This document shows, one piece after another, positions 2,536-34,735 of a stretch of DNA of 34,735 bases. Position 1 is the first letter of the stretch. Each line of letters begins with the position of its first letter. A model generated the notes under the pieces. It saw only the letters and a list, made by a program, of their open reading frames with translations, had not been told where the DNA came from and did not search any database. This DNA is from a virus. Both the position numbers and the translations under genes were made by a program. Location of the stretch: the IMG/VR virus record IMGVR_UViG_3300043470_001091, positions 1 through 34,735 of that record; one strand, written 5' to 3'.

Positions 2536-2976
2536 TTACTCTAGTACATAGACAAAAGGTTTGGTATCAATAAGAGTATTCTCAATGATAGCGGAAATAA
2601 CATTCCAATCTCCGTTGGCAAGACCTGCACCGATTTTTGGCATTGCAATCTCTTTAATACCCCATTGATTAATTTTACGGAATACTTCTGCAATTGCCCA
2701 ATATGAAACATAAACACGTGATGGATCACGTCCATAATCTTTCTGGGTAATTGCATTGTGAATTACATTTCCATCTTCCTGAACAGATACGACGATTGCA
2801 CCAAGTTCAAGACCATAACTATTATACGAGTCATTGTAGTCTTGAAATGCAGATGGATATTTATCTCGAAGTACATAAGCAACACCAGACCTCATCACAC
2901 CATGACTATTACAACCATGAATAATATGCTTGATATTTGTTTCAAGCAGGTCACCTTTTATATATTCAATCTGCAT
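2536..2976 (-). CDS. Macro-domain protein (ADP-ribose binding or hydrolysing)
   Basis: A single macro domain filling all 146 residues. It shows the opening I-x-G-D-L-L, the ligand loop HGCNSHGVMRSGVA (residues 20-33) and the second phosphate loop PKIGAGLANGDW (around residues 113-124). The small size and the GDLL / C-N-x-x-G pattern resemble the ALC1/TARG1/Poa1p branch, which removes ADP-ribose from acidic residues or nucleic acid or dephosphorylates ADP-ribose 1''-phosphate. The branch containing the DarG antitoxin is related. It lies in the same operon as a predicted ADP-ribosyltransferase, directly after the GT4 gene (stop and start adjacent). Whether it undoes the phage enzyme or host toxins of DarT type is not visible. 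Confidence 0.85.
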   Translation of the reverse strand: MQIEYIKGDLLETNIKHIIHGCNSHGVMRSGVAYVLRDKYPSAFQDYNDSYNSYGLELGAIVVSVQEDGNVIHNAITQKDYGRDPSRVYVSYWAIAEVFRKINQWGIKEIAMPKIGAGLANGDWNVISAIIENTLIDTKPFVYVLE

Positions 2977-3987
2977 TTATCTCGCTTTCAATAATATATC
3001 TGAGAATTGCTTATAACAATTCTCCCACGTCCATTTCTTAGAACTAATATAAACCGATTCTCTATTTAAGTCAAGGCATTTTTGTACCGCTTCAGATAAA
3101 TCATCTGATAAGTAACCATTCACACCCTCTTCTATGATATCTTTAGGGCCTGTAACTGGATATGCAGCAACAGGAGTACCGCAGGCAAGTGCTTCAATAT
3201 TTACAACTCCGAATGTGTCAGTTTTTGAAGGAAACACAAACACGGTCGCTTTTCGATAATAGTCACCAAGTTCTTTCCCGGTCTTTTTACCAGCACAAAG
3301 AACATCTGGATACTTCTTTTTCAGTGTTTGTAGATAAGGACCATCACCTACTAGTATTTTCTGAGCATTTGGTATTTTTATAGAACAAAAATCATCAAGA
3401 CCTTTTTCTGGACTTACTCGACTGACACACAGCAATGTAATATTTCTATTTTTATCTTGTTCTTCTGGATAAAAAATTGATCGGTCAACACCACGAGTCC
3501 ATGACTGAATATCTTGAGTAAAACCTTTATCTTTTAGCTCTTGAACCATACTATCTGTAGTTGTCAAAATAGTTGTTGTCCCATTATATACATGCTTCAT
3601 CCATTTCCAACCAAGTTCTACTGAAATGAAGTTCCATTTTGCATTAATAAATTCTGGAAATTTTGTATGACACGATGTGGAGAATGGTATTTTTAATCTA
3701 CGGCAAGTTCGTGAAAATGCAATACCAAGAGTACCTTCTGGTGTTGCAATATGTATGTGATCCCACTTTTGTTTCTTTAATAATTTTCTGATTTGAAACG
3801 GATTTGGAATTCCAATTTCAATCTCTGGATAAAACCAAAGTGAAAATCTAATCTTGCATCTTTTTGGGTGATATACATAAACAATATCTCCATGCTCCCG
3901 AGCTTGTTTAACTAGATTAGAAAGTGTAGTCACAACACCATTTACTTGTGGATGCCAAGCATCAGTAATCAGAAGTATCTTCGACAT
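2977..3987 (-). CDS. GT4 glycosyltransferase, Agt-like (glycolipid synthesis)
   Basis: A complete 336-residue GT-B glycosyltransferase of family GT4. The N-terminal half has the WHPQVNGVVTTL acceptor-side motif and THxP-like HIATPEGTLG and SCHTKFPEF blocks; the C-terminal half has VSRVSPEKG, VGDGPY and the nucleotide-sugar E-x7-E region TDTFGVVNIEALACGTPV. This exact architecture is typical of the alphaproteobacterial GT4 enzymes sitting beside PlcP, such as Agrobacterium Agt, which makes glucosyl- and glucuronosyl-diacylglycerol under phosphate limitation. Databases often label them GDP-mannose-dependent mannosyltransferases. Its start overlaps the PlcP-like gene by 26 bases, so the two are translationally coupled. 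Sugar and acceptor are inferred from this neighbour, not from sequence. Confidence 0.8.
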   Translation of the reverse strand: MSKILLITDAWHPQVNGVVTTLSNLVKQAREHGDIVYVYHPKRCKIRFSLWFYPEIEIGIPNPFQIRKLLKKQKWDHIHIATPEGTLGIAFSRTCRRLKIPFSTSCHTKFPEFINAKWNFISVELGWKWMKHVYNGTTTILTTTDSMVQELKDKGFTQDIQSWTRGVDRSIFYPEEQDKNRNITLLCVSRVSPEKGLDDFCSIKIPNAQKILVGDGPYLQTLKKKYPDVLCAGKKTGKELGDYYRKATVFVFPSKTDTFGVVNIEALACGTPVAAYPVTGPKDIIEEGVNGYLSDDLSEAVQKCLDLNRESVYISSKKWTWENCYKQFSDILLKAR

Positions 3988-4726
3988 TTTTATTATACCT
4001 ATATTCTATTATTTCAAACCTGCCATCCATGTGTTCTACCAAGGCAGTTCCGGATTCAACCCAATCACCGCAATTCATATATTGAATTTCATCAATAGTT
4101 TTAATCTTTGCTACGTGAATATGCCCACATATAACACCATCATAACCTTCTTCTTTGCAATACTGAGATACACGATTTTCAAAATTGTTAATAAAATTTA
4201 ATGCTTCTTTGGTGTTTTGTTTTAGCCATTTACTTAAGCTCCAATATTCTAGGTTCAATAAATTTCGTATTTTATTGAAATGTATGTTAAACCAGATCAT
4301 AAAGTTATATGCAACATCTCCAATATGCATTAACCATTTGTGATTTACCATTAATGTATCAAAGAAGTCTCCGTGTATTACAAGATATCTTTTGCCATTA
4401 ATCCCAGTATAATCTATTCTATCTAGAAGCTTGATATTACCTACTTCAATATCAAATTGTAAAAACTTTCGAAGAGCTTCATCGTGGTTTCCTAGAATAT
4501 AATAGACATTTGTTCCACGTTTTGCAGCAGTTAAAATTCGTCTTATCACATTAGCATGACTTTGAGGAAAATACCATCGTTTTTGAAGTTGCCAACCATC
4601 TATAACATCACCAACAAGATATAAATTTTTACATGTATTAGTTTTCAAAAAAGAGCAGAGAGCATCTGCTTGACACCCTCTGCTCCCTAAATGTATATCA
4701 GATATAAAAATACTCTTATAATGCAT
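3962..4726 (-). CDS. PlcP-like / LpxH-like calcineurin-type metallophosphoesterase
   Basis: A 254-residue metallophosphoesterase with all metal motifs: D10-I-H12 (SDIHLGSRG), GDVIDGW with D40, GNHD at 79-82, a VIHGD block and the C-terminal GHIH. Residues DIHLGSRGCQAD, QSHANV and NCGDWVES are hallmarks of the alphaproteobacterial family annotated as UDP-2,3-diacylglucosamine diphosphatase, whose characterised members include PlcP, a phospholipase C acting on phosphatidylglycerol and phosphatidylethanolamine during phosphate starvation. PlcP is normally next to a GT4 transferase, as here. The alternative, an LpxH-type lipid A enzyme, is less likely because of the neighbour. AAAGG lies 7 bases before ATG. 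No signal peptide is seen, consistent with action at the inner face of the membrane. Confidence 0.8.
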   Translation of the reverse strand: MHYKSIFISDIHLGSRGCQADALCSFLKTNTCKNLYLVGDVIDGWQLQKRWYFPQSHANVIRRILTAAKRGTNVYYILGNHDEALRKFLQFDIEVGNIKLLDRIDYTGINGKRYLVIHGDFFDTLMVNHKWLMHIGDVAYNFMIWFNIHFNKIRNLLNLEYWSLSKWLKQNTKEALNFINNFENRVSQYCKEEGYDGVICGHIHVAKIKTIDEIQYMNCGDWVESGTALVEHMDGRFEIIEYRYNKNVEDTSDY

Positions 4727-4747: not shown

Positions 4748-5191
4748 TCACGGACTATTTATCGAGACCGTTTCTACAAAGACTCCATCTTTTATTTTCA
4801 GTGTTTTCCGAGTAAACGAATCTCGATCAATAAATGCTACTCTGAAATAGTCCCGACCACCGTCAATAGAAACACCATTACCGACACCACGAAAATCGTG
4901 TCTGTGTTGACTATAATGAAGTTCATCATTTACTTCGACCATGTCAAAGTTAAGATCTTCAATTCGGTCTGCATTGGTAATCATAAGTCTACCCTGCGAA
5001 TCATTATACAATCCAAAATACCGATTGCCGAACTCTGGGTGTGGTGTCTCACGGAAAAAGATATCTGCGGCCGAAGCACCATAGTTTGAAGTAGAAGATG
5101 TACAAACATACTTGACTTCAACACCATCCTTTTCGGAATATAGTTGAGCAGCTTTTTGTACATCAAGATATGGGTTGTGTTTAATGTTCAT
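4748..5191 (-). CDS. Hypothetical protein
   Basis: A 147-residue acidic protein, second gene of the operon from the promoter at 5447-5484. It contains a central segment YGASAADIFFRETPHPEFG and a HYSQHRHDFRG histidine-rich stretch. The pattern suggests a compact beta-rich fold, but I recognise no family. No membrane segments. It abuts the 77-residue gene (stop and start directly adjacent) and precedes the PlcP-like gene by 21 bases. Confidence 0.65.
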   Translation of the reverse strand: MNIKHNPYLDVQKAAQLYSEKDGVEVKYVCTSSTSNYGASAADIFFRETPHPEFGNRYFGLYNDSQGRLMITNADRIEDLNFDMVEVNDELHYSQHRHDFRGVGNGVSIDGGRDYFRVAFIDRDSFTRKTLKIKDGVFVETVSINSP

Positions 5192-5425
5192 TTAATTCAC
5201 CTGAGGGATTACAAGACCACGAATAGTTGCTTCTCTGAGCAAAACACAAAGAACAATAGCAACATTTGCGGCAAAATGATTGATTTCATGATTCTTCATA
5301 AAATCGCGAAGCATATCATCGTCACCTTCAAAGCGACGGTCAAGTGGAAGTCCTTGTCTGTCAAATGCGGTAACAAGAGCAATAATGTCTTGATCTGCAA
5401 GTTCTTTGGTATTGATAGGTCTCAT
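5192..5425 (-). CDS. Hypothetical protein, first gene of the lipid/ADP-ribose operon
   Basis: A 77-residue protein whose second half is hydrophobic and alanine-rich (AANVAIVLCVLLREATIRGLVIP), possibly one membrane helix or a buried core. The N-terminal half is charged (KELADQDIIALVTAFDRQG). Not recognised. It starts about 20 bases after the early promoter at 5447-5484, making it the first gene of an operon of eight genes down to the ADP-ribosyltransferase. Confidence 0.65.
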   Translation of the reverse strand: MRPINTKELADQDIIALVTAFDRQGLPLDRRFEGDDDMLRDFMKNHEINHFAANVAIVLCVLLREATIRGLVIPQVN

Positions 5426-5446: not shown

Positions 5447-5484
5447 TATAGAATCAGTATATACTATAAGAAGGAAAATGTCAA
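5447..5484 (-). promoter_or_regulatory. Early sigma70-like promoter, type A
   Basis: Minus strand: TTGACA (5484-5479), 17 bases, TATACT (5461-5456), then GATTCTATAA. The TGA inside TTGACA is the stop codon of the 56-residue gene at 5481-5651. It drives the operon from the 77-residue protein through PlcP-like, Agt-like, macro and ADP-ribosyltransferase genes. Confidence 0.85.
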
Positions 5485-6006: not shown

Positions 6007-6088
6007 TGGAGGCGCCTCTCGGAGTCGAACCGAGTACTTTCGTGCTTCGGATTTGCAATCCGACCCATTACCGTCCTGGCCAGGCGCC
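6007..6088 (-). tRNA. tRNA-Cys (GCA), variable region unusually long
   Basis: Acceptor GGCGCCT pairs with AGGCGCC, discriminator U, CCA encoded. Anticodon loop TTGCAAA on a TCGGA/TCCGA stem gives GCA. T arm CTCGG/CCGAG with TTCGACT. The acceptor end and the anticodon arm closely resemble E. coli tRNA-Cys. The variable region is 12 bases (AGCACGAAAGTA) where about 5 are expected, and can form a short arm closed by GAAA. Confidence 0.9.
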
Positions 6089-6107
6089 ATTATTTACTAT
6101 TTATTAA

Positions 6108-6284
6108 TCATTGAAATCTAAACGTAGTGTATAGATCTTTCTTTTCCTTTGATAACCACCAGTAGTCGCAAGAACACAGTTCTCTGGTATTTCCGCCGTC
6201 TTCTCTTACAAGAACATATGAACATCCAGCTGGCATGTATTCTATTGGTTGCCATTCCCATGAAGAAAAATATTTAATATCCAA
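6108..6284 (-). CDS. Small protein inside the tRNA array (TTG start)
   Basis: A 58-codon frame in the 212-base space between two tRNA genes. It starts at TTG after an AAAGGCG site and ends at TGA 19 bases before tRNA-Cys. Residues include SSWEWQPIEYMPAG, VLVREDGG and CDYWWLSKEKKDLY; the W-x-x-I-E-x-x-P-A-G opening and a Y-W pair faintly recall DUF551-like proteins. The only in-frame ATG (codon 17) would remove the domain start, so TTG is preferred. Confidence 0.5.
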   Translation of the reverse strand: MDIKYFSSWEWQPIEYMPAGCSYVLVREDGGNTRELCSCDYWWLSKEKKDLYTTFRFQ

Positions 6285-6300
6285 TTTTCGCCTTTATAGT

Positions 6301-6372
6301 TGGTAGCGTCTGTCGGAGTTGAACCGACCCTAGATCCTTATGAGAGACCCGTCTAAACCACTTAGAGACGCC
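6301..6372 (-). tRNA. tRNA with CAU anticodon (Ile2 if modified, otherwise Met)
   Basis: Acceptor GGCGTCT/AGACGCT (G1-U72 wobble), discriminator A, CCA encoded. Anticodon loop CTCATAA gives CAU. T arm GTCGG/CCGAC with TTCAACT, variable loop 4 bases. The D arm is compressed (72 bases in total). CAU with a TilS-like gene in the same genome suggests tRNA-Ile2 read as AUA after lysidine formation; elongator Met is the alternative. Positions 4-5 are G and U, not the C4/C5 favoured by E. coli TilS. Confidence 0.8.
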
Positions 6373-6377
6373 ATGAT

Positions 6378-6483
6378 CATTAACTTAATGCTGCACTAGG
6401 GTTCTTATTGAGAACATTCCAGCGCAAGGTTTTATCGTTTTCGGGAGCAACCCCTATACGCCTAGTGCATCATAAAGTTAATG
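6378..6483 (-). ncRNA. Long-hairpin structured RNA element 1 in tRNA array
   Basis: The gap between tRNA-CAU and tRNA-Lys(UUU) is filled by a 23-bp inverted repeat (6378-6400 with 6461-6483, two mismatches) closing a 60-base interior. The interior holds hairpin GTTCT-CAATA-AGAAC and a block GCGTAT...GTTG...TCCCGA...CGATAA that recurs in element 2. No cloverleaf fits on either strand. T4 also has non-tRNA stable RNAs (C and D) in its tRNA cluster; a Ro60-like protein is encoded 5 kb away. Confidence 0.55.
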
Positions 6484-6569
6484 GAGATCCAGAAGGGAAT
6501 TGAACCCTTATAACCTTTCGGTAGTGACTTAAAAGGACACCGCTCTTGACCAATGAGAGCACCTGGACC
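6482..6569 (-). tRNA. tRNA-Lys (UUU) with long variable arm
   Basis: Acceptor GGTCCAG/CTGGATC, discriminator U, CCA encoded. D arm GCTC/GAGC. Anticodon loop CTTTTAA, the usual Lys-UUU loop; its stem GTGTC/GTCAC has one U-U mismatch. T arm AAGGG/CCCTT with TTCAATT. The variable region is 14 bases with an ACC-GAAA-GGT arm, a class II feature not expected for Lys. Position 8 is G, not U. Confidence 0.75.
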
Positions 6570-6577
6570 GTATAGTT

Positions 6578-6663
6578 TGGTGAACCGCCTGGGAATTGAA
6601 CCCAGATAGCTTTCGCGACAGGTTAAGAGCCTGTTCCTATTGACCAATGATAGGACGCGGTCC
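6578..6663 (-). tRNA. tRNA-Lys (CUU) with long variable region
   Basis: Acceptor GGACCGC/GCGGTTC, discriminator A, CCA encoded. D arm CCTA/TAGG with an 11-base loop like the neighbouring Lys-UUU. Anticodon stem ACAGG/CCTGT, loop CTCTTAA giving CUU. T arm CTGGG/CCCAG. Variable region CGCGAAAGCTAT is 12 bases and can form GC-GAAA-GC. It shares its D loop with the UUU tRNA, so the two probably arose by duplication. Confidence 0.8.
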
Positions 6664-6671
6664 GTAAATTT

Positions 6672-6748
6672 TGGTAGCGCATACGGGTTTCGAACCCGTT
6701 TCTCCGCCTTGAAAGGGCGGCGACCTTCGCCAAGAAGTCCAATGCGCC
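6672..6748 (-). tRNA. tRNA-Glu (UUC)
   Basis: Acceptor GGCGCAT/ATGCGCT (G1-U72), discriminator A, CCA encoded. Anticodon stem CCGCC/GGCGG with loop CTTTCAA giving UUC. T arm ACGGG/CCCGT with TTCGAAA. D stem GACT/GGTC, variable loop of 4. Class I cloverleaf with no oddities apart from the first pair. Confidence 0.93.
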
Positions 6749-6856
6749 ATTATTCAGAAGATACACTGTTCCTTACCCCTATGAAGTTATCGTCGGACAA
6801 CAGATACGCATACCTACTTTTCTATGATGGATTAACCAGTGTATCATCAGAATAAT
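6749..6856 (-). ncRNA. Long-hairpin structured RNA element 2 in tRNA array
   Basis: Exactly fills the space between tRNA-Glu and tRNA-Phe: a 20-bp inverted repeat (6749-6768 with 6837-6856, two mismatches) closing 68 bases. Inside, on the minus strand, two adjacent hairpins are seen, AGGTA-TGCG-TATCT and GTTGTC-CGAC-GATAAC; each uses a G-U pair that would be A-C on the other strand, so the RNA is probably read on the tRNA strand. The block GCGTAT..GTTG.TCCGA.CGATAA is shared with element 1. Confidence 0.55.
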
Positions 6857-6931
6857 GGTGCAGCCCCGCGGGATCGAACCGCATCCTCTAGTTTTTCAGA
6901 CTAGCGTACACACCAGTTATACCAGGGCTAC
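6856..6931 (-). tRNA. tRNA-Phe (GAA)
   Basis: Acceptor GTAGCCC/GGGCTGC, discriminator A, CCA encoded. Anticodon stem CTAGT/ACTAG with loop CTGAAAA giving GAA. T arm TGCGG/CCGCG with TTCGATC. Standard class I form, 76 bases; its CCA end abuts element 2. Confidence 0.93.
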
Positions 6932-6935
6932 ATTT

Positions 6936-7019
6936 TGGTGGGTCGGGCAGGAATCGAACCTGCCGTGGGTTTCCCCGACGGATTTACAATCCGCTGCCAC
7001 ACCTTGTGGCATCCGACCC
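6936..7019 (-). tRNA. tRNA-Tyr (GUA)
   Basis: Acceptor GGGTCGG/CCGACCC, discriminator A, CCA encoded. D arm GCCA/TGGC. Anticodon stem GCGGA/TCCGT with loop TTGTAAA giving GUA. A 14-base variable arm (GGGG-AAA-CCCA region) as expected for bacterial tRNA-Tyr. T arm GCAGG/CCTGC. Position 8 is A, which is unusual. Confidence 0.93.
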
Positions 7020-7024
7020 ATATT

Positions 7025-7098
7025 TGGTGTTCCTACGAGGTAACGATCCTCGGTCTCTCGCTTATCAGGCGAATGCTCTACCATTGAGCTATAGGAAC
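7025..7098 (-). tRNA. tRNA-Ile (GAU)
   Basis: Acceptor GTTCCTA/TAGGAAC, discriminator A, CCA encoded. D arm GCTC/GAGC. Anticodon stem TTCGC/GCGAG with loop CTGATAA giving GAU. T arm CGAGG/CCTCG, with loop ATCGTTA departing from the usual TTCRA start. First tRNA of the array in transcription order. Confidence 0.92.
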
Positions 7099-11053: not shown

Positions 11054-11836
11054 TTGTTTATAGAAAATAAATACACCAAAATATACTATTCGATCATATA
11101 TAATGCAAAAGCTAAATCAAGAATAAAAGGTGATATGTATTATGAAAATCATCATATAAAACCAAAATCATTAGGTGGTAATAATGATAAAGATAATCTT
11201 GTTTTATTAACACCGAGAGAACATTTTATATGCCATTTACTACTTGCAAAAATTACCTTAGATTCTGATAGAATAAAAATGATTTATGCTCTTAGAAGAT
11301 TAGCAAATAGTAACATAGTTTTAAACTCTCGGCAGTATGATGTGGTAAGAAATTTGCATATATCTGTATTAAAATCTATCCCTAAATCCGAAGAACATAA
11401 AAAGAAAATATCAGAAGCAAATAAAGGAAGAAAATTAACACGTGAACACAGGGAAAAGTTAAGAAAACCTAAAACTGAAGAGCATAAGGACAAGTTAAGA
11501 AAACCAAAATTAAATTCAGAAAATATGGGCAGATATGAAAGAACAGAAGAAACCAGAAGAAAAATGAGTGAATCTCATATAGGTTTACAGTTTGGTGAAA
11601 AGAATCCAATGTTCGGAAAAAAGCATACCGAAGAAGTTAAATTAGCACATTCCGAAAGAATGAAAGGTAATCAGAATGGGAAGGGTTGGATTCCTTCTGA
11701 AGATGCTCGGGCCAAAATGTTAGCCCGAGCAAAAAATCGTAAAGTAACTGTTTGTCCATACTGTCAAGGTTCTTATGTAGGTTCTAATTACACAAGATGG
11801 CACGGAGACAATTGCAAATTAAAAGTCGTATCGTGA
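11054..11836 (+). CDS. Free-standing HNH homing endonuclease with NUMOD3 repeats
   Basis: A 260-residue protein. Residues 30-60 hold the HNH core (NHHIKPKSLGGNNDKDNLVLLTPREHFICH). From about 115 to 215 there are NUMOD3-type repeats (SEEHKKKISEANKGRK, TEETRRKMSESHIG, GEKNPMFGKKHTEE), DNA-binding modules of mobile nucleases. The C-terminus has a zinc-finger-like CPYCQGSYVG...HGDNC. It starts at TTG 6 bases after GGAG; the nearby ATG is out of frame. It is plus strand within a minus-strand region, and its end overlaps the 3' end of the TROVE gene by 18 bases, the mark of an intergenic insertion. Confidence 0.92.
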   Translation: MFIENKYTKIYYSIIYNAKAKSRIKGDMYYENHHIKPKSLGGNNDKDNLVLLTPREHFICHLLLAKITLDSDRIKMIYALRRLANSNIVLNSRQYDVVRNLHISVLKSIPKSEEHKKKISEANKGRKLTREHREKLRKPKTEEHKDKLRKPKLNSENMGRYERTEETRRKMSESHIGLQFGEKNPMFGKKHTEEVKLAHSERMKGNQNGKGWIPSEDARAKMLARAKNRKVTVCPYCQGSYVGSNYTRWHGDNCKLKVVS

Positions 11837-13282
11837 ATCCATGATTACTTTCATCATCATAGCTTGAGGCGTAAACTCTTCTGGGTTTGCACCTAGAACA
11901 GTTGCCATAATTGATGGGCTAAACCCTGATACAATGACAACCCCCTGATCATTAACCTTTACAGGAGATTGATCTGCACTTGCCCTAGCAGCTAGGTTCC
12001 AGAAGATAATTTTTGGGCAATTATATCCAGCATCACGATATTTTTGGCGAGCCATTTCTAGTGCGGTCGCGTCAGTACCACGGATTGCTGCATCATTAAA
12101 TTGCATATCACTCATGATGGCAATAAATTCTGGCATATTATCTGGTGCAACATTACCACTCTTCGCAGTCTGTAGTAGACTATCGAAAGCCTTGGTAAGG
12201 TTGGTGTCGTAACCAACAGCACCTGACATCTGGCGCATCTTCTGGGAAAGTGTACCCTTCAGAACCTGAATAGTTGCAGAACTGGTGAAAGTAATGAACA
12301 TATCCTTGAAGTCAGATGAAGTCTTGGAAGATAGATACAGACCTAGTGAAAGGGCAATATCCATGGCAGTCATACCACCAGCGAGCATAGTACCCATGGA
12401 ACCTGACACGTCGACCATTGGCATGATCTTGGTGTCACCGACATAGTTTGGCAGAGCATCGAACTGTGCGTTAGCAACAGCCTCGTTACCATGACGAAGT
12501 GACTTGACAACATCGTATGGGTAAACTGCACCAGCATTGATCTTGACCTTTGGATCACGCTCTTCCTGTGGCTTCTGAAGCTCACGGATATAAGCAGAGT
12601 AAGCATCAGCGGCATTCTTACCGAAAGCCTTCTGGTAACGGGCAGAAGCAAGTGATGGAACATGCGAGAAGTTAATCTCGTCCCAGCGCTTGGCACACAT
12701 CAGAGACTCAACAACACGAGTCGAACCAACAAGAATCTGACGATACTCCTTTGGAGAGAGCATCATGAACTTGCGCAGTTCGCTTGCGTTCTTTAGCTTC
12801 TCCATCTTACCTGGAGTAGTTGACTTCTTGCTTGATGCAAGACGTGGAGCCCACTTTGCGGCAAGACCGTCACCATTCATGAGTGCGTCAGCAAACATGC
12901 GGAGTGCATTTTTGCGGTTAGCAGGATCACGATATGCAAAGAGGTCGTCCCAACGGCCAAGTTCTGGAACCTTGTGCATGATGCGACCAGCTAGTGCTGG
13001 GCTCTGTGCTTCGAGTGAACGAAGAAGATTACGGAAGGTCTGGCGCTCACCAGCACCGGAACGGACGTCACGTGCCCATAGAAGAACACGAACAGCTAGG
13101 TTCTCATCTTCTGCAAGTGCAGCGGAGAACGAAGGTGTCAGGTCACGACCACGGCTTGAACCGATCTTACCGAAAAGGTCAAGGACCTTAGAGTCGGAAG
13201 TTGCCCATGCCTTCATACCGTTCTCGGTACGAGATACCTCCGCTGATTTTTGATTTGCAACTGCTTGTGAAAAAGTAGCCAT
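11819..13282 (-). CDS. Ro60-like protein: TROVE-type helical domain plus vWA domain
   Basis: A 487-residue protein. The first 270 residues are helical-repeat-like with LFGKIGSSRGRD, AVRVLLWARDVRSGAGERQTFR and KVPELGRWDDLF, as in TROVE-type Ro60/Rsr relatives. Residues 285-480 form a von Willebrand A domain with an intact MIDAS, D291-x-S293-x-S295 in VDVSGSMG, plus YDTNL and MSDMQF. Ro60 orthologues bind Y RNAs and help RNA quality control with PNPase; relatives occur in some phages. Codon use is strongly biased to CGT, AAC, AAG and TTC, as in highly expressed genes and unlike most neighbours. GGAAGG precedes ATG. The 5' leader holds a perfect hairpin. It is monocistronic. Confidence 0.8.
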   Translation of the reverse strand: MATFSQAVANQKSAEVSRTENGMKAWATSDSKVLDLFGKIGSSRGRDLTPSFSAALAEDENLAVRVLLWARDVRSGAGERQTFRNLLRSLEAQSPALAGRIMHKVPELGRWDDLFAYRDPANRKNALRMFADALMNGDGLAAKWAPRLASSKKSTTPGKMEKLKNASELRKFMMLSPKEYRQILVGSTRVVESLMCAKRWDEINFSHVPSLASARYQKAFGKNAADAYSAYIRELQKPQEERDPKVKINAGAVYPYDVVKSLRHGNEAVANAQFDALPNYVGDTKIMPMVDVSGSMGTMLAGGMTAMDIALSLGLYLSSKTSSDFKDMFITFTSSATIQVLKGTLSQKMRQMSGAVGYDTNLTKAFDSLLQTAKSGNVAPDNMPEFIAIMSDMQFNDAAIRGTDATALEMARQKYRDAGYNCPKIIFWNLAARASADQSPVKVNDQGVVIVSGFSPSIMATVLGANPEEFTPQAMMMKVIMDSRYDF

Positions 13283-15833: not shown

Positions 15834-16550
15834 TTATTCCTCGCGTATCATCAAGAGTGAATTGTATGTATCTAACCAACTATTAACATTAATAGAGTAA
15901 TCACACAGTATTGCAGCGTCATAATCGTTACCACCAGGGAAGATCTGATCGCCAAAATAATAAATTATATCTGTTTTTTCTGTACGTATTTTACTTATGG
16001 CTTGTGATTTACCAAAACCTTTTTTAAAGATATCTAAACCTGTTTCACCACCGATATATACATCTATATGATCAAATTTATCTTTTATCTTATTGTAAAA
16101 TAGTTTTCGTTCTTGGGTTTTACTGTCCCAATCAACATATTGTTCTCTCTGTTTAAATGAACAATTTCTACCCGGTATCGAGAAATTAACCATACCTTTT
16201 CTAAACTCGATATGATTGCCTGTTTTCTCTGGAAATTGTGATTCATCTAGAAGTATTTCAAGATAATTTACAATTTCTTGATCTGGTTTCCAATTACTTG
16301 AATACACTAGATAATTTTTATTCCATACTTCATTACCTGCACAATTGAATGAAAGCTGCGCAGAATTAAATATAGTTTTACCGATTTGTTCTACAGTTTT
16401 TGGCTTGTCACTTCCTGTAACAAAATATACTAAATTTGTTTCACAGAATGTTTTAAAAAACTTTGCAAAATCTTTTTCTATAACTTTACGAGATTGCGTA
16501 AGAGTACCGTCAACATCAAATACAAATTTTCTAGTCAAGATGTTCAACAT
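15834..16550 (-). CDS. Eukaryotic-type phosphomannomutase-like HAD protein
   Basis: A 238-residue HAD-superfamily protein. It begins with the nucleophile motif FDVDGTLT, then VTGSDKPKTVEQIG, NCAGNEVW, FRKGMVNFSIPGRNCS, IGGETGLDIFKKGFGKSQA and YFGDQIFPGGNDYDAA. These last blocks are diagnostic of the PMM1/PMM2 family, which converts mannose 6-phosphate to mannose 1-phosphate. The family is mostly eukaryotic but occurs in some bacteria and phages. ATG at 16550 is chosen; a GTG two codons earlier is possible. It overlaps the YqiA-like gene by 20 bases. Its product could feed GDP-mannose or another activated sugar. Confidence 0.85.
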   Translation of the reverse strand: MLNILTRKFVFDVDGTLTQSRKVIEKDFAKFFKTFCETNLVYFVTGSDKPKTVEQIGKTIFNSAQLSFNCAGNEVWNKNYLVYSSNWKPDQEIVNYLEILLDESQFPEKTGNHIEFRKGMVNFSIPGRNCSFKQREQYVDWDSKTQERKLFYNKIKDKFDHIDVYIGGETGLDIFKKGFGKSQAISKIRTEKTDIIYYFGDQIFPGGNDYDAAILCDYSINVNSWLDTYNSLLMIREE

Positions 16551-17124
16551 ATCCACAGTGATTTATATAATCATGGATTGTTTCTAGTGATTCTTCCATA
16601 TGATCAAACCTATGGCTCCCACCTTCAAACCGCTTCATCGGGAATTCTTTTAGAACTAATTCTGTTCCACCAGATCCAATAACTTCATCACCCATATCCA
16701 AAAGAACCAAAGGAAGATATTTGTAAGTTTTATCTTGCCCGTAGATATACTTCGAATTGTATGTATCAACAACTTCACTAGTTAAAACATTAGTGATAGC
16801 TGTATGATAGTTTGTTGTTATAACACCTTCATACCTACGAAGCATTGAACTAGGATCATAACAAGGGTTAATAATAACCGAAGGACATCCATAATGCTTT
16901 CCCATTTGCGCCGCCCAGAAACCGCCAAGTGAGGTTCCTACGAAAATAACTTCATCCGACCGATCACTTGGTACTTGAGATGTGATGTATGAGAAAATTT
17001 CATCATATGATACATAAGTATCATATGTGATACCGATTACTTCTCCTAGAGAAGATAGTGTTTTTACTTTACTTGCTTCTGGATCAAAAGCAGAATTAAA
17101 GCCGTGAAGGTAGATATAGATCAT
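16531..17124 (-). CDS. YqiA/YcfP-type alpha/beta hydrolase
   Basis: A 197-residue alpha/beta hydrolase of the UPF0227/YqiA type. It opens YIYLHGFNSAFDPEASKVK (oxyanion-hole H-G-F), has the nucleophile elbow GTSLGGFWA near residue 65, INPCYDPS, an Asp region LLDMGDEVIG, and a catalytic His in FEGGSHRFDHMEES. Such enzymes are esterases or CoA-thioesterases with poorly known substrates. It is first in an operon with the phosphomannomutase-like and nucleotidyltransferase genes; GGAG stands 7 bases before ATG. Confidence 0.8.
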   Translation of the reverse strand: MIYIYLHGFNSAFDPEASKVKTLSSLGEVIGITYDTYVSYDEIFSYITSQVPSDRSDEVIFVGTSLGGFWAAQMGKHYGCPSVIINPCYDPSSMLRRYEGVITTNYHTAITNVLTSEVVDTYNSKYIYGQDKTYKYLPLVLLDMGDEVIGSGGTELVLKEFPMKRFEGGSHRFDHMEESLETIHDYINHCGYVEHLD

Positions 17125-32079: not shown

Positions 32080-32403
32080 ATGAGCACATTAATTGAAATT
32101 AATACAGTAGAAGAATTACAAAATCACTGGCGCGATCATTATCTTCAATGGTGGGCTGCAGGCATGCCGAGTTTTAGACAACCATCCAAAGACCCGTGGA
32201 AACAAATTGTAATTAAATTTAAGAATAAAGAAGATCGTGAACATTTTGGACAATTATTCGGATACAAATTGACAGATCGAACTGATGTGGTATCATATCC
32301 AGATAGACCGCGCGATCCAAATATGATGAGTCGATATGTTGAAGAAGGATATGAACAAGATAAAATTGAAGGAATTAGTGAAGATGACGACACAGATGAA
32401 TGA
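32080..32403 (+). CDS. Small paralogous protein B before TAGT
   Basis: A 107-residue protein sharing the W-K-Q-I-V-I-K-F-x-x-x-x-D-x-x-x-F-x-x-x-x-G-Y-K core with protein A. It also has a W-W-A-A-G-M-P-S-F segment and an acidic tail EDDDTDE. Starts 2 bases after protein A and overlaps TAGT by 8 bases. The pair probably arose by tandem duplication. Function unknown. Confidence 0.65.
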   Translation: MSTLIEINTVEELQNHWRDHYLQWWAAGMPSFRQPSKDPWKQIVIKFKNKEDREHFGQLFGYKLTDRTDVVSYPDRPRDPNMMSRYVEEGYEQDKIEGISEDDDTDE

Positions 32404-33340
32404 TAATCCTCGATACCCCATCTATGTGATATCGAAAGGCCGCTGGGAATCAAGACACACAGCAAGAACTCTGGACAAGATGGGTGTTCCGTATTATCTT
32501 GCTGTTGAACCACAAGAATATGATAACTATGTAAATGCAGTGGGCAAAGAAAAAGTTTTGGCTCTACCTTTCAGCAACCATGGGCTAGGTTCTGGACCTG
32601 CTAGAAATTGGTGTTGGGAACATTCAAAGGCAACTGGTTTCAAGCGGCATTGGCTTATGGATGATAATATGCTCGACTTCTATCGTCTACATAATAACAA
32701 GCGTTACCGCGTAGATAAAGGTTCCGCAATTTTCCGTGCCGCAGAAGATTTTGTTGATCGGTTTGAAAATATTGCACTTTCAGGTTTTCAATACAAATTC
32801 TTTGCAATTGATGATTGTGCATACCCTCCATATATTTTAAATACACGCATAATGTCTTGTTTCCTTATTGATAATGACTGCCCTGTAATGTGGCGCGGTA
32901 AGTATAATGAAGACGTTGATCTTTCAATTAGAGTTTTGAAAGAAGGTCTTTGCACTATGTTATTCTATTCGTTCCTTTGTGGGAAACTCCGGACTGGTAC
33001 GGTTAAAGGTGGTAATACTACCGAAATCTATAACAACTATCAGGAAGATGCATCATATAATAAGTCCAAGATGCTTTATGAAATGCATCCAGACTGTGTT
33101 GAACTTGTAGAAAAATATGGTAGAGCACACCACCATGTAAACCTTGATAAAATCATAAATAAGTTCGGCCAACCTGCTAGACAAAATGTTCCAATCTTGA
33201 AAAAAGATGTTGACATAGTCAATAAAGTAGATAATTATGGTATGGAATTATACCGTAACTATGGGTCAAATAACACATTTTCAGATCCTACATTCAGTTT
33301 AAATGAATACCCCAAGGGGAGACTTTCTAATCATGCATAA
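32396..33340 (+). CDS. TET-associated-type glycosyltransferase (TAGT)
   Basis: A 314-residue GT-A-like glycosyltransferase. Diagnostic blocks: [48 protein letters not shown] (D-x-D-like), [34 protein letters not shown] and [19 protein letters not shown] recognise this as the TAGT family described next to phage TET/JBP dioxygenases, thought to add sugars to hydroxymethylated bases in phage DNA. No TET gene is in this window, so the acceptor is open. ATG at 32396 is chosen in an ATGAATGA overlap; ATG at 32384 is possible. Sugar-nucleotide genes follow directly. Confidence 0.8.
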
Positions 33341-34190
33341 TATTCTTGTCACAGGTGGTGCTGGTTTTGTCGGCAGCCACCTGTGTGAACGTCTTGTATC
33401 ACTGGGGCATAATGTTACATCACTTGATAATTATTTTACTGGCTCAAGTGATAATCATATTTCGGGTGTAACTTATATTAACGGAAGTACTGAAGATATA
33501 CTGTCTTTACTTTACAGTGAAACTTTTGAATATGTTTATCACCTTGGTGAATATTCACGAGTAGAACAATCATTTGATGATATGGAACTTGTATGGAATT
33601 TTAATAAAGTAGGAACATATGAAGTTCTTAAATATGTAAAACAATGTAATGCAAAATTAATTTATGCTGGTTCATCAACCAAATTTGCAAAAGTTGATGT
33701 TATAAGTCCATATCAATGGTCGAAAGCATCCAATACAGATTTTGTAAATCAATATTGTTCATGGCATTCTATTGACTATGCTATTACGTATTTCTATAAT
33801 GTTTATGGTAAACGTGAAATCAAAGACGGAAAATATGCTACACTTATTGCTAAATACAAGTCATTAATGAAACAAGGCAAAAAACTTCCTATTGTAATGC
33901 CAGGTATCCAACAGAGAAATTTTACACACATTGATGATATTGTCGATGCTTTAATTCTTGTTGGTTTCGGTGGACAAGGCGACGAATACGGTATTGGAAA
34001 TCCAAATTCGTATTCAATTCAAGAAGTTGCCGAAATGTTTGGTGGTGAAATTGAATATTTACCAGAACGAAAAGGTAATCGCCTAAGTGCAGAGGTTAAG
34101 AGTGAAAAAACTATAGAATTGGGGTGGAAACCTCAGAAAGAATTAACTAAATATATCGAATTGTTAAAATATAATGGATGGTGTGACTAA
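33333..34190 (+). CDS. NAD-dependent sugar-nucleotide epimerase/dehydratase
   Basis: A 285-residue extended short-chain dehydrogenase. It starts at the ATG at 33333 so that the Rossmann motif [12 protein letters not shown] sits at the N-terminus. Later blocks: [21 protein letters not shown], catalytic YQWSK (Y-x-x-x-K), and [14 protein letters not shown]. It belongs with UDP-glucose 4-epimerase, dTDP-glucose 4,6-dehydratase and relatives; the exact sugar is not evident. It overlaps TAGT by 8 bases. Confidence 0.85.
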
Positions 34191-34191
34191 T

Positions 34192-34735
34192 ATGAAAAAG
34201 TTAAGAATGGCTATTGTGGGGCACGGGTTTGTCGGTGCAGCAGTAGATTATGGGTTTCCGAATGGTAACTGTAATAAAACAATCATTGATCCGAAATATG
34301 GAACTCAAGTCTCTGATTTAATGGAATCTGATGTTGAAGTGTCATTTGTTTGTGTTCCAACTCCGATGGGGCAAGATGCAAGCATTGATGCTTCAATTCT
34401 AGTTTCTACTGTAACTGATTTGCTTGCATACACGTCTGGTATGATTGTGATTAAATCAACAGTCATTCCGAGTATTGTCGGTGAACTTGCAAAAGATCCA
34501 AGAGTCATTTACAATCCAGAATTTTTGACCGAAAAGTCTGCAAATGAAGATTTTGTCAATCCGATCATGCACGTGTTCGGTGGAGATTCTGAACAAACAG
34601 AAAAACTTGAAAAGATCTACACTAGATATAGTGCATGTAAACCATGTGCTGTTTACCACATGACCGCCGAAGAAGCAAGTTTTGTCAAATATGGTATGAA
34701 TTCATTTTTAATGACAAAGGTATTATTTTTCAACC
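34192..34735 (+). CDS. UDP-glucose/GDP-mannose dehydrogenase family, 3' end outside window
   Basis: The first 181 residues are present with no stop. Rossmann motif VGHGFVG (residues 9-15), CVPTPMGQD, KSTVIPSIV and NPEFLTEKSA, then EEASFVKYGMNSFLMTKV, all typical of UDP-glucose 6-dehydrogenase (UDP-glucose to UDP-glucuronate). The active-site cysteine would lie beyond the edge. Relatives oxidise GDP-mannose or UDP-N-acetyl sugars. Starts 1 base after the epimerase stop, same operon as TAGT. Confidence 0.85.
   Translation, partial: MKKLRMAIVGHGFVGAAVDYGFPNGNCNKTIIDPKYGTQVSDLMESDVEVSFVCVPTPMGQDASIDASILVSTVTDLLAYTSGMIVIKSTVIPSIVGELAKDPRVIYNPEFLTEKSANEDFVNPIMHVFGGDSEQTEKLEKIYTRYSACKPCAVYHMTAEEASFVKYGMNSFLMTKVLFFN

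Follow-up and report, generated by a model that had tools for sequence, protein, structure and literature searches.

In water, a shortage of phosphorus often holds back phage production, and among the main stores of this element in the host is its membrane phospholipid. The DNA analysed here (the window: the whole stretch of 34,735 nucleotides of virus record G000) contains a metallophosphoesterase gene overlapping a family-4 glycosyltransferase (GT4) gene, which raises the question of whether a virus carries the swap of membrane lipids known from phosphate-starved bacteria. In that bacterial system, according to passages of PMC4796936 and PMC8528852, phospholipid is converted by PlcP to diacylglycerol, to which Agt then adds a sugar. 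The answer proposed here, read from the sequences, is that the two genes probably form a phage-borne PlcP-Agt membrane lipid remodelling module.

Genes of the Locus and Their Viral Context

The features needed for the argument are the following (window coordinates):

2536..2976 (-): macro-domain protein gene (domain match), starting at the base next to agt and in the same gene string
2977..3987 (-): agt-like gene for a 336-aa GT4, predicted diacylglycerol glycosyltransferase (ORF, Pfam, tree, residues)
3962..4726 (-): plcP-like gene for a 254-aa metallophosphoesterase, predicted PlcP-family phospholipase C (ORF, Pfam, trees, residues)
4748..5191 (-): 147-aa ORF between promoter and plcP, without a match in the Pfam search
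5192..5425 (-): 77-aa ORF of unknown function, first gene after the promoter
5456..5484 (-): sigma-70-like promoter TTGACA-17-TATACT, 11/12, upstream of the gene string with plcP-agt (a consensus match only)
34174..34734 (+): partial UDP-glucose dehydrogenase gene at the window end, a possible source of UDP-glucuronate (domain match)

Both plcP and agt lie on the (-) strand and overlap by 26 nt. The plcP product matches Metallophos in Pfam (8.5e-15), and that of agt matches Glycos_transf_1 (2.1e-21) and Glyco_transf_4 (1.3e-17), so that the overlapping phosphoesterase and GT4 reading frames reported by the first-pass annotation are borne out by the ORF list, Pfam and the overlap. The two are conserved genes: in each of 9 pairwise comparisons, dN is 0.12-0.33, whereas dS (a rough value here) is saturated or exceeds 1.4. 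The macro-domain protein encoded after agt, whose best NCBIfam match is the DarG antitoxin (67.7 bits versus a cut-off of 250), could counter a host ADP-ribosylation defence. Eight tRNA genes lie upstream of the plcP-agt gene string (6007-7098 (-)), and other predicted products of the window include a DUF7788/DUF2828 protein (11819-13282 (-); phrog_850 RNA-binding protein), a phosphomannomutase-like HAD protein (15834-16556 (-)) and a UPF0227 protein (16531-17124 (-)).

By its gene content the window phage is T4-like. It encodes a T4-type DNA polymerase (best isolated-phage matches to cyanophage among those listed, 43%), SbcCD-like proteins (gp46/47) and a late sigma factor; virion structural genes were not identified within the window. 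An 80-kb sister contig that matches the window at 99.95% identity over 19 kb adds topoisomerase II, a DnaB-like helicase and a PstS-type protein, and searches of it for T4 portal and terminase found neither. Portal was found in 5 of 50 contigs and terminase, above the cut-off, in 10 of 50, including the contigs of L005, L006, L032, L074, L090, L094 and L095, all of which carry the plcP-agt pair; the terminase family also matches 6 of 14 control genomes.

The Phosphoesterase Groups with PlcP

The window phosphoesterase has the fold and the metal-site residues of LpxH. LpxH is at the top of the fold search made with its structural model (mean pLDDT 84.3, which is moderate, and poor around residues 127-135), and a search of solved structures returned LpxH only, as a weak match. 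Seven residues, D10, H12, D40, N80, H118, H202 and H204, which we take to be the metal ligands from LpxH assignments, are kept in 37/37 viral PlcP rows. However, the window protein lacks LpxH residues such as Arg80: at this position, after the Asn, Arg is found in 8/8 LpxH rows, whereas His occupies it in 37/37 viral and 70/71 bacterial PlcP rows. The LpxH families of NCBIfam score only 47 and 62 bits with the window protein, versus cut-offs of 190 and 134.

Bacterial genomes separate the two types as well. Matches to window PlcP at E 1e-20 or better occur in 143 of 385 alphaproteobacterial genomes, and in Gammaproteobacteria (122 of 369 genomes with a match at 1e-8 or better) they fall into two groups, one PlcP-like, with full-length identities of 32-56% and 104-305 bits, and one LpxH-like, with 25-35% and 35-50 bits, two PlcP-like fragments at 58 bits being the exception to this gap in scores. 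In a quick tree of 116 rows (144 rows thinned at 92%: 71 bacterial, 37 viral and 8 LpxH, including E. coli LpxH), where the bacterial rows, as in the Agt trees, are best-scoring matches only, the LpxH rows are set apart from all others by a long branch (support 100%); several long rows of this tree, some of them viral (L003, L055-L057, L090), are unsurely placed. A more careful tree of 68 rows omits LpxH and 12 loci that are long or outlying, and its bacterial rows are reduced to 36. In it, window PlcP falls in a clade (support 100/98) that comprises 30 viral rows and a single alphaproteobacterial one. On this tree the viral label requires at least three changes, so plcP moved between viruses and cells more than once.

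In this analysis the window phosphoesterase shares the LpxH fold and sits on a different branch, and it would hydrolyse PE, PG or PC to diacylglycerol. The PlcP affinity proposed at first pass thus stands, given the fully supported LpxH split and the position of the window protein inside a clade of bacterial PlcP and viral rows. The alphaproteobacterial character ascribed to the phage proteins does not stand, since they show no special tie to that class and SAR86-type rows join the viral Agt clade most closely. An LpxH (lipid A) identity for the phosphoesterase was considered and is rejected on the HMM scores, the tree split and the change of Arg80 to His. Because PlcP has the same fold as LpxH and belongs to another branch, the label 'UDP-2,3-diacylglucosamine diphosphatase' on PlcP homologues is misleading; LpxH serves as the outgroup to PlcP in a passage of PMC9239053.

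Two further observations concern the distribution of plcP. The alphaproteobacterial PlcP inside the viral clade (L120/L195) is 63% identical to that of the window, and its sequence would fit either a donor or a reverse transfer; agt was not found beside this plcP, and the search for prophage signs around it gave nothing decisive (neighbours HNH, DUF2125 and helicase). The L015 contig carries two plcP genes of different clades (L015:1874 and L015:8001).

The GT4 Resembles Bacterial Agt

Residues required for catalysis, donor binding and diacylglycerol binding have been named for GTcp of SAR11 HTCC7211, where replacing Asp257 by Glu cut activity by more than 90% (passages of PMC8231724). When these residues are placed on window Agt only by motif and residue number, 14 of 14 are present, including the catalytic His-Asp dyad and the His, Thr, Arg and Trp of the lipid pocket. 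The motif FPSxTDTFG reads FPSKTDTFG, and the first donor motif, GRVAxEKN, reads SRVSPEKG, with Arg, Glu and Lys kept and the ends differing. All 14 residues occur in 49 of 68 viral Agt rows; among the remaining 19, 17 differ at Thr164 (some elsewhere too), and L035 and L083 have Glu257. Asp257 is found in 66/68 viral and 65/66 bacterial Agt rows, whereas Glu, usual in GT4 enzymes, stands there in 3/3 control phage GT4s. The set is suggestive and not exclusive, since one of these controls (L203, from a record of an Acinetobacter phage) lacks only Thr164 and Asp257 and so has 12 of the 14; the other two, L204 and L205, have 10 and 7. The E. coli LPS or colanic-acid GT4s WaaG, WaaB, WcaC and WcaI have 2-6.

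Window Agt groups with bacterial Agt proteins encoded after plcP in a tree of 86 rows (108 thinned at 90%), in which a single clade (support 82) takes in 32 of 34 viral Agt rows and SAR86-type rows attach to it (92). In a wider GT4 tree it lies inside the Agt rows, the five outside GT4s standing on very long branches that do not fall on one side of a single branch; those of WaaG, WaaB, WcaC and WcaI are 6-10 long, which makes their placement unsure, and the rows of these Agt and GT4 trees include no O-antigen mannosyltransferase. The structural model (mean pLDDT 93.3) is nearest to GT-B enzymes, namely glycogen synthase, BshA and other GT4s, many of its neighbours being GT4. The Agt-like nature proposed for the GT4 is therefore supported by its grouping with bacterial Agt and by the 14 GTcp residues as placed, and the protein would synthesise glycosyl-diacylglycerol. 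The contrast with O-antigen mannosyltransferases named at first pass is drawn only indirectly, through this grouping and the very distant LPS and colanic-acid enzymes of E. coli. On profile, tree and residue evidence, the enzyme families of both proteins are well supported; a search of a viral structure library was uninformative, its best listed match being 17% identical.

Identity as an ordinary phage GT4 was rejected for agt: GT4s of the phage collection are 20.9-33.6% identical to window Agt (80% query coverage being reached by 8 of the 18 records), and the three controls combine Glu at the key position with 12, 10 and 7 of the 14 residues.

The Pair Is Coupled in Many Viruses and Exchanges Partners

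Scanning the viral contigs with PlcP gave 61 loci, and the scan with Agt gave 35. Together, the window, two isolated phages and IMG/VR loci make up 80 viral plcP loci with a match of at least 150 residues, after seven duplicates and L001 had been dropped and with near-copies (e.g., window, L004 and L018) still among them. In this survey for the linked pair, a check suggested at first pass, agt lies downstream of plcP on the same strand in 64 of these 80 loci, within 200 nt in 63 and at 760 nt in one, and many of the pairs overlap. Two of the 16 loci without agt (L024, L096) end at a contig edge, leaving 14 of 78, and six (L014-L017, L019, L025) have a family-2 glycosyltransferase (GT2) after plcP in place of agt. 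Coupling in bacteria is similar (agt downstream of plcP in 49/59 loci). Searches of phage collections for an isolated phage with the plcP-agt pair found none.

After near-copies were collapsed into 37 viral PlcP/Agt pairs, PlcP and Agt identities correlate (Spearman 0.47), although 37 comparisons combine PlcP at 68% or more with Agt below 50%, and 5 combine Agt at 62% or more with PlcP below 50%. Such discordance among coupled pairs shows that adjacency outlives the exchange of either partner. Between the window and contig G003, plcP-agt is the sole blastn match over 200 bases, with 76% DNA identity.

Promoters, Pho Boxes, and Phosphate Genes

An early place for the pair, with no late promoter, had been proposed, and the locus is consistent with it: the sigma-70-like promoter lies upstream, and no late-type TATAAATA occurs in or directly before the plcP-agt gene string. 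TTGACA and TATACT with 17-nt spacing occur four times on the (-) strand in 11 kb, and promoter-like matches in the region number 47, near the chance level of 40.5 in shuffled sequence. Near the window pair no Pho box exceeds chance, so the phage probably makes PlcP and Agt early whatever the phosphate state. The standard Pho box is likewise not enriched in the viral upstream regions as a set (mean best match 8.89 vs. 8.82 shuffled, 53 regions), and upstream of bacterial plcP its mean best match is 9.94 vs. 8.66 shuffled (80 regions).

A relaxed Pho-box pattern, YTGTMAYNNNNYTGTMAY, was composed after sites had been seen, so its counts are post hoc. Exact matches number 9 in 1.07 Mb of viral loci versus 1.2 expected, about five of them distinct sites, given the near-copies L014/L015/L016 and L021/L022/L023; seven stand immediately upstream of plcP and two upstream of a small gene next to it. 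Matches with one mismatch number 27, of which four precede pstS (L010, L011, L017, L019) and 23 precede neither pstS nor plcP, and exact matches precede 2 of 69 bacterial plcP genes. In L015, a Pho-box-like site lies about 25 nt before each of the two plcP genes.

In six loci (L002, which is phage Mosig, L009, L010, L011, L017 and L019), plcP has a PstS-type gene (PBP_like_2) as its neighbour or no more than four genes away; Pfam was applied to L010, L017 and the sister contig. The gene order is plcP-agt-pstS in L010 and pstS-plcP-GT2-UDP-glucose dehydrogenase in L017, where a small ORF separates glycosyltransferase from dehydrogenase, and no tmRNA was called between pstS and plcP in L009.

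The Sugar Donor

The first-pass annotation had suggested that a UDP-glucose dehydrogenase in the window could supply UDP-glucuronate. The gene is there, in partial form, but it adjoins genes for a TET-associated glycosyltransferase (PF20691) and an NAD epimerase, the three standing in a row at 32336-34734 (+), a probable DNA base glycosylation cluster by its domains; because of these neighbours, the dehydrogenase may serve DNA modification. L010 and L012 encode, 3-4 kb ahead of plcP, a UDP-glucose dehydrogenase 52% identical to that of the window; tblastn finds no match to the TET-associated glycosyltransferase there, and the SAR86 locus L099 has the order plcP-agt-UDP-glucose dehydrogenase. 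In L014, L015, L016 and L017, plcP is followed by GT2 and a short UDP-glucose dehydrogenase (243-250 aa) and then, on the opposite strand, by a class-3 lipase gene of a family present in nine loci.

Related Systems and Earlier Descriptions

The pair shares gene families, order, tight coupling and key residues with the bacterial plcP-agt operon (SAR11 HTCC7211, Pseudomonas aeruginosa PA3219-PA3218 and Methylosinus OB3b; plcP also of Phaeobacter MED193), but here it is found in phages, mostly in viral clades of its own, and the window promoter is sigma-70-like without a Pho box. According to a passage of PMC4796936, plcP lies near a gene for non-phosphorus lipids (a glycosyltransferase or btaAB) in about two thirds of strains, and window plcP has such a neighbour in the overlapping agt. 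The auxiliary genes pstS and phoH of phages likewise concern phosphorus supply, and a pstS-type gene is near plcP in some relatives, although the pair would act on internal membrane phospholipid and not on uptake.

The first-pass annotation knew of no described phage version. For the pair this stands within the literature searched, most subscription papers and preprints lying outside its scope. For plcP alone it does not, since the isolated Pelagibacter phage Mosig EXVC030M carries a PlcP (QOI69083.1) 54% identical to that of the window. Mosig plcP and a gene with the annotation phosphate ABC transporter are divergently oriented; unlike in the window, the Agt search gave no match, and its PlcP is annotated as an LpxH-type UDP-2,3-diacylglucosamine hydrolase. 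The Mosig announcement does not mention lipid or hydrolase. In the parts of the sources searched, lpxH appears without comment on PlcP in viral gene lists (PMC9611531, PMC10653327), in one phage gene list (PMC13384950) and in a table, apparently of bacterial genes, in a phage paper (PMC12837969). Passages of a virocell study report changes of lipid synthesis under low phosphate and do not mention plcP (PMC12282109), and the terms searched had no match in the searched text of PMC9599517, PMC9636769 and PMC4796936.

Alternative Explanations

The most serious alternative, possible but clearly less probable than remodelling for phosphorus, keeps the same enzymes and gives them another purpose, namely an envelope change for superinfection exclusion, lysis timing or escape from defence, with phosphorus release being incidental. 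It agrees with the sigma-70-like promoter and the lack of a Pho box at the window pair, and with the macro-domain gene that follows it; moreover, a review makes the case that phage receptors can be altered when lipids change (passage of PMC9804370), and Ruegeria aminolipids have been tied to phage attachment (PMC9938194). Relatives of the window, however, tie plcP to pstS and Pho-box-like sites. Modification of lipid A or LPS, by an LpxH-type UDP-diacylglucosamine hydrolase and a GT4 that decorates LPS or O-antigen and so blocks co-infecting phages, is improbable. Database names do point that way (UDP-2,3-diacylglucosamine diphosphatase or hydrolase, also in 14 of 15 plasmid rows among the matches listed), LpxH structures are the nearest solved relatives of the phosphoesterase, pelagimyophage glycosyltransferases and UDP-glucose dehydrogenases have been interpreted as LPS genes (passage of PMC7029224), and no O-antigen mannosyltransferase stood in the GT4 trees. 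Against these points, the LpxH rows split off at 100% and keep an Arg80 that is absent from every viral row, the LpxH family scores are far below their cut-offs, and the GT4 groups with bacterial Agt, remote from the LPS and colanic-acid enzymes of E. coli.

The cluster at 32336-34734 brings up the idea that phosphoesterase and glycosyltransferase work with its TET-associated glycosyltransferase, epimerase and UDP-glucose dehydrogenase in DNA hypermodification, which is very improbable: the cluster is 28 kb off and on the opposite strand, tblastn with its glycosyltransferase matches none of the other plcP/agt loci, where epimerase matches are weak (L053 and its duplicate L091; L055 and L056 via clustering), and the families of the pair act on lipids. 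Bacterial DNA mis-sorted into virus collections, the least probable explanation and close to negligible, would account for the same operon being found in bacteria, for a terminase family shared with control genomes and for a sister contig lacking T4 portal and terminase, but it is opposed by the T4-type replication genes on the window and sister contig, by the portal and terminase contigs, several of which hold the pair, by plcP in an isolated phage and by the viral rows falling mostly in their own clades.

A Proposed Model for Phage-Driven Lipid Exchange

With lipid remodelling as the preferred reading, we infer that the two proteins are catalytically active, that host lipids change during infection, and that the phosphorus is used to the benefit of the phage. 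Early in infection, PlcP would split host phospholipids by hydrolysis into diacylglycerol and a head group bearing the phosphate; a UDP-sugar would then serve Agt as donor of the glucose, galactose or glucuronate with which it caps the diacylglycerol. The resulting glycolipid would replace the lost phospholipid, so that the membrane stays a bilayer, while the lipid phosphorus released would become available for phage DNA. By our own estimate, a small cell holds about 5 million phospholipids, which contain the phosphorus of about fifteen T4-size genomes.

A broader proposal, whose chances we judge to be even, is that T4-like and other phages carry a mobile, recombining cassette of plcP with GT4 or GT2, in some cases with pstS, UDP-glucose dehydrogenase and a PhoB-type promoter, which would turn host phospholipid into phosphorus for viral DNA with glycolipid taking its place, and that many 'lpxH' genes of viral surveys would be plcP. 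Many environmental viruses carry the pair, which may give them a means of mining host membranes for phosphorus. If so, an enzyme pair able to open the lipid store while leaving the membrane intact would count as a new class of auxiliary metabolic gene, the 'lpxH' entries in viral metagenome tables would need re-reading, and phage infection would be linked to the lipid-remodelling ecology of aquatic bacteria.
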